From Sorangium aterium (GTDB lineage Bacteria; Myxococcota_A; Polyangia; Polyangiales; Polyangiaceae): a stretch of 64,000 bases of DNA. Positions 41,293 through 45,491 of this stretch are shown here, piece by piece. The notes below the pieces were generated by a model that was not told the origin of the DNA, made no database searches, and saw nothing but the letters and a program-made list of their open reading frames with translations. Numbering within the stretch: position 1 is the stretch's first letter; every line of letters begins with the position of its first letter. The stretch covers positions 372,001 to 436,000 of the forward strand of contig NZ_JAQNDK010000003.1 in the NCBI RefSeq assembly GCF_028368935.1, given 5' to 3'. The position numbers and the translations under genes were made by a program.

Positions 41293-41724
41293 CGGGCGCG
41301 CGGCCCCACTCGCGCTGCGGCGCGGGCGGCGGAGGTCACGGCGCGCGGGCCCGCCGTCCAACGTCCTTGCCGGCGTCCTCGCCGTTGTTCCACCTTACCT
41401 GTTCCGGCAGCTGCGCGCGTGCGTCCGGCACGTCGTCTCGCCGGAGCGCTGCGCCTCGTCCTGCCGAGATGCGCCTTGCACCTCGTCCTGCCTGGCCGCT
41501 GCTCCCGGTGACGCCTGCCTGGCCGTGTGCGACGTGCGACGTGCGACGTGCGACGTGCGACGTGCGACGTCGAACGACGCCTGCCCGGCTGCGCTGCGAG
41601 ACGCGGTGGGAGGGTGGGACCCTGCGGACCGCGGGTAGACATGGATGGAATGGAAGAGAATCGCTTTCGATGTTTCGGTGCGTGAGCCCCTTGCTCGCCT
41701 GAACAGCGGTGATAGGCTGGTCCT
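41293..41724. other. Gene-free stretch with a heptamer repeat
   Basis: Contains six perfect tandem copies of GTGCGAC (41527-41568). ORFs on both strands are Arg/Ala-rich shadows. A -35/-10-like pair, TTGCTC (41691-41696), 16-nt spacer, TAGGCT (41713-41718), lies at the end and could start the candidate RNA that follows. Confidence 0.55.
41527..41568. repeat. Heptamer microsatellite, GTGCGAC x6
   Basis: Six perfect contiguous copies in non-coding DNA between the unknown-protein gene and the candidate structured RNA. A seven-base unit is not a multiple of three, consistent with a non-coding location. Confidence 0.9.
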
Positions 41725-42250
41725 CGGCCTCGGACGGAGCATCAGCTCCAGGATGGTCCTGCCGTGGAGCACCACGGTGCCGGGGTCGACACCAGATCGG
41801 CGGGCTCTCCGCAGATCCGCAATCGAACACCCTTGCCATGCCGGACGATCTCTTTCGATCCGGCGCGGGGTGCCGGCAAGCCGGAGGAGGGATGGACACC
41901 ATGCACAGTACCAGTGGCTCTTCTATACCGGAGGCTGGGAACGGCTGACCCTCGTGGAGCGTGGACGCAGGGTCATCGGGGCCTTGCAAAACGCTACCGC
42001 GCTCGGCCAGGTCCGGCGCTCGATAACCTGTTGACTGCCATCGCGACCTCCGCGAGGCCGGCAGAGAGGGAATCGAGGAAGACTCAGGTCTTCCAGCAAC
42101 GATTCTCACCGGCGCTCCGGGGCCGAACGCTCGTCGCGATGGGACAGGGGGGGCGCCGCACAGGCGGGATCAAGCGGGGTCCAGAAGGCCTCCGGTAGAG
42201 GCCCACGGGACGGGTCGGGTGCGAGCAAAGCACCCGACCCGTTTTTATTT
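41725..42250 (+). ncRNA. Candidate structured non-coding RNA, about 525 nt
   Basis: No convincing ORF spans this stretch, yet it is packed with local hairpins on the plus strand. Perfect stems are GGAGC-ATCA-GCTCC (41736-41749), CCGTGG-AGCA-CCACGG (41762-41777), CCGG-CAAG-CCGG (41873-41884), GGAAGAC-TCAG-GTCTTCC (42077-42094) and GGCCTC-CGGTA-GAGGCC (42187-42203). Stems with a mismatch or bulge are at 41795-41817 and 41841-41863. TGACCC (41946-41951) can pair with GGGTCA (41970-41975). The stretch ends in a 13-bp intrinsic terminator with a U-tract. A promoter-like pair precedes it. Signature motifs of RNase P RNA, tmRNA, SRP RNA and common riboswitches were not found. It could also be a long leader attenuating the lipoprotein gene at 42308. 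Confidence 0.5.
42210..42250 (+). terminator. Strong intrinsic terminator
   Basis: Perfect 13-bp stem ACGGGTCGGGTGC (42210-42222) / GCACCCGACCCGT (42230-42242) with loop GAGCAAA, followed by TTTTATTT. It is the clearest rho-independent terminator in the window, and no protein gene ends just before it. Confidence 0.92.
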
Positions 42251-42307: not shown

Positions 42308-42868
42308 ATGCGGATGCTGCTGCTCGCGCTGCTGCCGGCGTTGCCCTTGCTTCCAGCCTGCGCCGACGCCTTCGGCGATCAGGAAGCGCCGGAGCGGGGG
42401 ACCGCGCTCGGCGCGTTCCACGTGGTCGGGACGCAGACGGCGAACACGTGCGGGGAGGGGGCGCTCGGCGCGAAGCGCCTGTGGGAGTTCGACGTCGAGC
42501 TCGCGCGCGGCGACGGGTCCCTGTACTGGAACAACGGCGCCAGCGTGATCCCAGGCGTCATCGACGACGACGACGTGAGCTTCTCGATCGACGGGCGCGT
42601 GGTGGTGGACATGCGCGCCGGCGACGCGCCGCCGGGGCCGCCGTGCTCCGTCGAGCGCCGCGACCGAGCGCTCGGGCAGCTCGGCGGCAGAGGGGATGAC
42701 GTCGCCGGGTTCAAGGCGACGATGTCCTTCGAATTCGTGCCCACGGCGGGGTCGCGGTGCGAGGACCTCGTCGCCGGAGAGCTCAGCGTGGCGCCGGTGC
42801 TCGCGGCGCTGCCGTGCGGCATGGCCTACGATCTCAAGGCCAAGCGGAGCGCGCTCCCGCCCGAGTGA
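42308..42868 (+). CDS. Putative lipoprotein, unknown function
   Basis: The 186-residue product starts MRMLLLALLPALPLLPACAD with a lipobox Cys at about 18. The mature part has an even number of cysteines (TANTCGEGALG, PPCSVERRD, GSRCEDLVAG, AALPCGMAYD) that could form disulfides, and strands such as RLWEFDVELARGDGSLYWNN. No family is recognised. ATG 42308 directly precedes the signal peptide; upstream in-frame starts run into the terminator region. Confidence 0.7.
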   Translation: MRMLLLALLPALPLLPACADAFGDQEAPERGTALGAFHVVGTQTANTCGEGALGAKRLWEFDVELARGDGSLYWNNGASVIPGVIDDDDVSFSIDGRVVVDMRAGDAPPGPPCSVERRDRALGQLGGRGDDVAGFKATMSFEFVPTAGSRCEDLVAGELSVAPVLAALPCGMAYDLKAKRSALPPE

Positions 42869-43861: not shown

Positions 43862-44084
43862 ATTCCATAGTCACTGTTCATCGCATGGCGCCCCGGGCGC
43901 TCTCGCGTGTGCGGTAGTGAGCATTACCGCCAAACCGCGTTCGTCCTGAGCTGGGGTGTTCGCAAACCAAGCCGCGGCGCTGTTGCGCGCGTTGGATCAT
44001 GGCGTGTCATGCACGGCGAGGCGGCCCGACCGGCGCCCGATCCACGGGGATCACGCTGGGCTTCGCCAGCAGGAGGTCTATCTT

Positions 44085-45491
44085 ATGAATCGGAATTCGC
44101 TGCGGTTTCTCTCGGTGGGTCTGCTCCTGGCGGCCGTCGCGTGCGGGGATGACGACGGTGGCTCCGGCGGTGCAGGGAGCGTGTCCTCCGGCACGGGCGG
44201 GGCAGGGACCGGCGGCGCTGCCGATGGCGGCGGCGGGAGTGGGGGTGGCGACGGCGGGGGCGGCGCGTCGACGCCTGGCGGGAGCGGGGCTGTCGATACG
44301 GGGGAGTACCGCAACCTCTTCGCCGAGAACGGGCGCACGCAGGACGAGGTGAACGCCAAGATCGCGGCCGCCTGGGACCATCTCTTCAAGGGAGATCCGG
44401 CCGAAGAGGCCGTCTATTTCGAGCAGGACGAGAACGACAACGGCCCGCTCGCGCAGATCCGCGACATCGCGAGCGAGGACGTGCGCTCGGAGGGCATGAG
44501 CTACGGCATGATGATCGCCGTCCAGACAGACCATCAGGCGGAGTTCAACGCGCTCTGGAACTAGGCGAAGACATACATGTTCCACGCCGACGAGACGCAC
44601 CCGGCGTACGGGTATTTCTCGTGGTCGATGAATTTCGACGGCACCCCGCTCGACGAGATGCCGGCGCCGGACGGCGAGGAGTACTTCGCGACGGCGCTCT
44701 ATTTCGCGTCGGGGCGCTGGGGCAACGGCGAGGGCATCTACGATTACCGGGCGGAAGCGGATCGCTTGCTCGACCTGATGAAGAACCGGCCGGACGTCGC
44801 GGGGGAGGTGTTCGCGAACGGGGAGACGCGCGCGACGACCGGGTCGACGCTCTTCAACACCGAGAACCACCAGATCCGCTTCACGCCGAACACGGGGAAC
44901 TTCGAGACCAACGGGGATCACACCGATCCGTCGTATCACCTGCCGGCCTTCTACGAGATCTGGGCCAAGTACGGTCCGGAGGCGGACCGCGCCTTCTGGA
45001 GCGAGGCGGCCGAGGTGAGCCGCGGGTACTTCCACCTCGCGGCTCACCCGCAGACGGGGCTCACGCCCGATTACGCGAATTTCGACGGCACGCCCAAGGC
45101 GGCGTCCTGGAAGCCCGAGTCCGTGGACTTCCGCTTCGACGCGTGGCGCACCGCGATGAACTGGTCCGTCGACTGGGCGTGGTGGGCGAAGGATGAGCGC
45201 CAGCAGGAGCTCAGCGATCGGATCCAGGCGTTCTTCGAGGCGCAAGGCGCGGAGTACGGGAACCAGTTCACCCTCGACGGCGAAGAGCTGAGCGCCGACC
45301 ACTCCTCGGGCCTCGTCGCCATGAACGCGGTCGCCAGCCTGGCGGCCACCGACCAGCGGTCCGCCGATTTCGTCCAGGCGCTCTGGGACGTCGATCCCCC
45401 GAGCGGGCAGTACCGCTACTACGACGGCATGCTGTATTTCATGGCGCTGCTGCACGTGAGCGGCGAGTTCCAGGCATACGCGCCGCAGTGA
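44085..45491 (+). pseudogene. GH8 exo-oligoxylanase-like lipoprotein, interrupted by an in-frame TAG
   Basis: ATG 44085 follows AGGAGG (44071-44076). The product would be a lipoprotein (MNRNSLRFLSVGLLLAAVAC) with a Gly-rich linker and a GH8 domain most like reducing-end xylose-releasing exo-oligoxylanase. YRNLFAENGRTQDEVNAKIA, DVRSEGMSYGMMIAVQ (general acid Glu), APDGEEYFATALYFASGRWG and DFRFDAWRTAMNWSVDWAWW (general base Asp) are all present. Codon 160 (44562-44564) is TAG inside FNALWN-stop-AKTYMFH, where relatives have Trp, so one G-to-A change of TGG explains it. The frame is intact to the natural stop at 45491. Probably a recent pseudogene, a sequencing error, or readthrough. Confidence 0.9.

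Follow-up and report, generated by a model that had tools for sequence, protein, structure and literature searches.

The element at about 41650 to 42250 of the window, the 64,000-nucleotide stretch of Sorangium DNA analysed here (G000:C3:372001-436000, from a genome of 13.5 Mb), is well supported by comparative sequence analysis as a stand-alone, single-copy gene for a structured RNA that matches no Rfam family. Midway along it lies a Shine-Dalgarno (SD) sequence followed by a 15-codon open reading frame (ORF), which the initial annotation, describing an undescribed structured non-coding RNA, had missed. Our leading explanation, which we hold tentatively, is a dual-function RNA encoded by a gene of its own; its short ORF would be translated, and translation would probably gate the fold of the RNA. 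The features of the element are collected in Table 1.

Table 1. Observed and predicted features of the element (window coordinates)
Feature	Position	Strand	Description
Putative promoter	41691..41718	+	-35-like TTGCTC (41691-41696), 16 nt, -10-like TAGGCT (41713-41718)
Predicted transcript, ~525 nt	41725..42249	+	Inferred from the conserved block, promoter-like pair, terminator and MFE z-score of -6.6
5' multi-branch domain	41727..41786	+	Outer stem 41727-41733/41780-41786 encloses hairpins A, H1 and H2
Hairpin A	41736-41740/41745-41749	+	Consensus fold, two-sided changes
Hairpin H1, UGG loop	41750-41753/41757-41760	+	UGG-loop hairpin recurs upstream of P1
Hairpin H2	41761-41767/41772-41778	+	Consensus fold, two-sided changes
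Helix P1	41828-41833 with 41867-41872	+	Preceded by a conserved GAA
Hairpin P2, CCGGC-AA-GCCGG	41873..41884	+	Directly 5' of the SD
Shine-Dalgarno GGAGGAGG	41883..41890	+	GGAGG-type sequence, near-invariant in homologues
Short ORF, 15 codons, MHSTSGSSIPEAGNG, stop TGA	41901..41948	+	SD-start-stop arrangement conserved in homologues
SD-like GGAGG inside the ORF	41930..41934	+	11 nt before the stop codon
Putative long-range helix P3	41926-41936 (ORF second half) with 42187-42197	+	11-nt complementarity, p = 0.05
Intrinsic terminator	42210..42249	+	Perfect 13-bp stem (42210-42222/42230-42242), 7-nt loop, T tract

All five congeneric genomes carry the element at 85-95% identity. Binned at 100 nt, similarity among them begins near 41650 and stops near 42250, and the segment 41300-41640 is not alignable; the boundaries proposed initially are therefore close to right. 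Among the closest congeners, the element is mostly more conserved than the lipoprotein gene that lies 3' of it. The promoter-like pair, the hairpins and the perfect 13-bp terminator stem reported earlier are all present in the sequence, together with other perfect short inverted repeats. The promoter-like hexamers recur, identical in sequence and spacing, in a second genus (G137), and a third (g18) has a slightly changed version (TTGCAC and TAGGGT). A strict sigma-70 scan returned no promoter at 41691-41718. A tandem run of the 7-mer CGACGTG (41524-41572) lies about 120 nt 5' of this pair, in the non-conserved part of the intergenic region. The proposal of a large structured RNA also held up: positions 41715-42250 fold with a minimum free energy (MFE) of -281 kcal/mol, against -240 ± 6 kcal/mol for dinucleotide shuffles (z = -6.6; none of 100 shuffles did as well), and helices covary in relatives.

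A DNA search of the order identified a short core, comprising a hairpin, the SD and the short ORF, that is conserved in other families. A covariance model of this core (R1) matched 93 of the 318 genomes of the class, and a longer model including helix P1 (R2) matched 162 of the 318, from about 20 families; roughly half of the class genomes are without a match, with stricter filters in the scan and many draft assemblies. Every genome positive with R2 has a single match apart from two, both fragmented assemblies. One draft (G049) holds two copies on different contigs (L103 and L104) with slightly different peptides (MHSTYGLSRKGTTG and MHKTYGLSRKGTTG), so that either the gene is truly duplicated or the assembly is mixed. 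Of 379 genomes sampled across the phylum, 60 matched, all from the same class except G372. The locus in G372 (L175), from another class of the phylum, has an SD, a 14-codon ORF, a UGG-loop hairpin and a terminator-like hairpin, and may represent deep ancestry, transfer or a misassigned bin. When species genomes totalling 257 billion bases were searched for an exact pattern, all 16 hits were labelled Sorangium, Labilithrix, Byssovorax or other Myxococcales/delta-proteobacteria MAGs; the Sorangium cellulosum strains So ce26 and So0157-2 have the element. A phage origin was also considered and set aside, the pattern, itself narrow, being absent from viral contigs.

Comparison of some 60-90 homologues revealed covariation in the 5' multi-branch domain, in helix P1 and in hairpin P2. 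In the consensus fold of the 5' domain, two-sided changes occur in the outer stem, hairpin A and H2. In an alignment of 58 sequences (A3), 93.9% of P1 cells are paired and two-sided changes are found in five of its six pairs; for P2 the count is four of five, an underestimate since the alignment slips by one column there in about 11 rows. Variant forms of P2 include CUGGC/GCCAG in one family (f22) and CCGCC/GGCGG in genome G221. The covariation score of P1/P2 was 0.345, whereas shuffles scored 0.157 and slid controls no more than 0.09, which rules out a chance structure. Upstream of P1, a hairpin with a UGG loop was present in 42 of 85 regions (next best trinucleotide, 20) on many different stems, and hairpin A directly adjoined it in 27 of 43 (control 0.12).

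The UGG loop of H1 (41750-41760) is complementary to CCA, and a conserved CCACC or GCACC lies close by in many copies, so that a loop-loop contact with this motif, or a contact with the 3' end of tRNA, is conceivable. A T-box riboswitch was considered and rejected: there is no Rfam hit and no consistent downstream gene, and the T-box UGGN is a bulge in the antiterminator helix, whereas here UGG forms a terminal loop.

Searched against Rfam 15 at the gathering score, the window gave no matches, and a low-threshold scan added only Scr6106, whose 24.4 bits fall short of the 52.5-bit cut-off; ARAGORN detected no tRNA or tmRNA genes in the window. The covariance models of tmRNA, 6S RNA and RNase P RNA, none of which matches in the window, score above cut-off elsewhere in the genome (tmRNA at G000:C1:3196652-3196996, away from the element), and these three identities were rejected. 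In size and single-copy status the element does resemble tmRNA or RNase P RNA, but with the true genes located elsewhere, no Rfam family that fits and chance excluded by covariation, we attach hardly any credence to the idea that it is a known housekeeping RNA in diverged form or a chance structure.

The description as non-coding was not supported by the comparison, even though the structure, the RNA's own terminator and the lack of an Rfam match did. All 113 homologues read (93 from the first round and 20 from the second) have an SD, a start, a short ORF and a stop, and the RNA is therefore not purely non-coding. In the first round, 93 of 93 had an in-frame ORF that begins with ATG at the spacing expected from the SD; with automatic choice of the start, 91 of these have 13-16 codons, and the others have 17 and 21. 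For G131, G136 and G301 we consider a start at the first ATG, which gives 13 codons (MHERSGSHPGEQT), more likely; before these three starts were reassigned, the stops of the 93 ORFs were TAG in 44, TGA in 28 and TAA in 21. Frames +1 and +2 of the same homologues have their first stops at scattered positions. The 20 second-round loci, G372 and members of other families among them, are arranged alike, with ORFs of up to 21 codons, and in family f3, where GTG frames were read by eye, GTG replaces the ATG start. From this conservation we infer that the short ORF is translated and, less firmly, that the act of translation, more than the sequence of the peptide, is the function.

Two longer ORFs that overlap the element (41645-42034 and 41764-42198) have no Pfam match and were rejected as genes; they are broken by single-base indels among the congeners (GGA-TGG versus GGATTGG in alignment A4) and hence are not conserved. 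A programmed frameshift at the end of the short ORF, raised by the SD-like element inside it, was likewise dismissed, as inspection by eye showed no conserved slippery site.

Conservation is weak for the sequence of the peptide and strong for ORF length, SD, start and stop. The residues that recur follow the pattern M-Q/H-S-T-x-G...P-E-G/V/A, with D also found at the Q/H position, and part of their conservation may come from base pairing. Changes among the closest ORF pairs, which are not independent of one another, number 25, 22 and 44 by codon position, and the distribution is flat in more distant pairs. These data bear on a serious rival, that of a small-peptide gene in which activity would reside in the 13-16-residue peptide, with the folded 5' region serving as a regulatory 5' untranslated region, riboswitch-like or protein-bound, that controls its translation. 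The slight third-position excess, the recurring M-(Q/H/D)-S-T..P-E residues and the conserved SD, start, stop and terminator would all fit an active peptide. Yet the peptides have diverged to a loose pattern while length and RNA elements persist, the codon-position signal is gone at moderate divergence, and no secretion or membrane signal is apparent by eye, and we consider the small-peptide gene somewhat unlikely.

Between the stop codon and the terminator lies a segment complementary to the second half of the ORF, with a mean z-score of -1.74 over 57 units; this pairing, of the P3 type, reached p ≤ 0.05 in 16 of the 57 (about 3 expected). It is clearest in compact forms (families f5 and f10) and weak in several large forms. 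GGAGG was found inside 45 of 81 distinct ORFs. In 30 of the 81 its distance to the stop is exactly 11 nt, which places it 8 nt ahead of the final sense codon. At this distance the anti-SD of a ribosome in termination could base-pair with it. Because the same nucleotides are partners in P3, the role of GGAGG is ambiguous, and its spacing from the stop may be a by-product of P3.

Since the peptide drifts while length, start and stop are kept, and the 3' segment has its pairing partner in the second half of the ORF, passage of a ribosome probably switches that segment between paired and free states. In the dual-function mechanism that we favor, the untranslated RNA would have the second half of its ORF paired with the post-stop segment in P3. 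Ribosome loading at the SD, access to which would be controlled or sensed by the upstream folded domain, would melt P3, and the ribosome may then pause at the stop codon, helped by the SD-like GGAGG. With P3 open, the 3' segment would be available for an activity of its own, such as base pairing with other mRNAs.

Alternatively, the RNA could act in trans or bind ribosomes, perhaps as a ribosome decoy or a sensor of translation status, and use its SD and ORF solely as a platform on which ribosomes dock, with the peptide and P3 irrelevant. A near-invariant extended SD, a single-copy, stand-alone locus and a GGAGG that could hold the terminating ribosome in those 30 of 81 ORFs would be in keeping with such a platform, which nevertheless leaves the conserved short ORF length and the P3 pairing of compact forms unexplained; we regard it as improbable.

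The genomic context speaks to whether the RNA is an independent gene. The initial annotation had offered, as an alternative, a long leader attenuating the lipoprotein gene at 42308. This gene (42308-42868) encodes a small putative lipoprotein without a Pfam match that in many genera of the family is kept close to the RNA, whether upstream or downstream, and is possibly a functional neighbour. Synteny was assessed by tblastn on individual loci; searches of genome contigs by peptide patterns found no relatives of the lipoprotein. The lipoprotein gene does follow the terminator on the same strand in this genus and in several related ones, as a leader would have it, but it lies upstream of the RNA in G086 and G147. 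Among the 52 loci with a downstream gene, called by codon-position GC rather than from annotation, 32 have it co-oriented and 20 convergent, and the neighbours vary between families. Synteny thus largely refutes the lipoprotein leader, which we now consider very improbable, and with neighbours that change, inconsistent downstream orientation and the lipoprotein on either side, the RNA is better described as a gene of its own. Further downstream, two adjacent ORFs in the same frame (43956-45491) read by eye as one GH8-type glycosidase-like protein, interrupted by an in-frame stop at 44562-44564 (...NALWN*AKTYMFH...) that reflects a pseudogene, a sequencing error or a recoded stop.

Dual-function bacterial sRNAs include SgrS/SgrT, RNAIII/hld and Spot 42/SpfP. 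Another is VcdRP of Vibrio cholerae (PMC8672173). The element resembles these in organisation, as judged here from its sequence: a stand-alone predicted transcript, an intrinsic terminator, and an SD with a small ORF. It would also qualify as an independent unit with its own terminator, given a terminator-like hairpin within about 300 nt past the ORF stop at roughly 35 of 42 loci and neighbours that are inconsistent. It differs in that the ORF, mostly of 13-16 codons, sits between covarying structured domains and is kept across about 20 families with little conservation of the peptide. With tmRNA it shares a single-copy structured RNA containing a short internal reading frame, whereas here the frame has its own SD and an AUG or GUG start. 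Leader-peptide attenuators such as the ilvB and fthC uORF motifs (PMC11109978) likewise combine a conserved SD, start, short ORF and stop with subsequent hairpins and a terminator, the ORF overlapping a helix. In contrast to these, the element has no run of regulatory codons and no consistent co-oriented downstream gene, the next gene often being convergent, and on this defining point a uORF leader was rejected. Surveys of intergenic regions have also listed sORF candidates (PMC6429828, PMC11109978), which are similar in that a conserved short ORF is not placed to regulate a main ORF, and different in that the present ORF is embedded in an extensively covarying RNA fold. The main texts of both surveys contain no mention of Sorangium or other myxobacteria, and a literature search, with most subscription papers outside its reach, found no paper on this RNA.

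Single-copy structured RNAs kept throughout a class without neighbours that explain them are uncommon and tend toward general functions. A bolder reading, which we rate as unlikely, is that the element represents a new kind of class-wide, single-copy RNA that draws ribosomes to a minimal, obligatory ORF, with their initiation and termination switching its own fold. Such an RNA would be a stand-alone sensor or effector of translation status, analogous in standing to tmRNA or 6S RNA and not homologous to either. Covariation together with a kept ORF length, SD, start and stop and a drifting peptide is what would be expected if the act of translation were the function. Annotation pipelines are likely to overlook this family both as an RNA and as an ORF, and the RNA is directly testable in culturable Sorangium, Chondromyces and their relatives.
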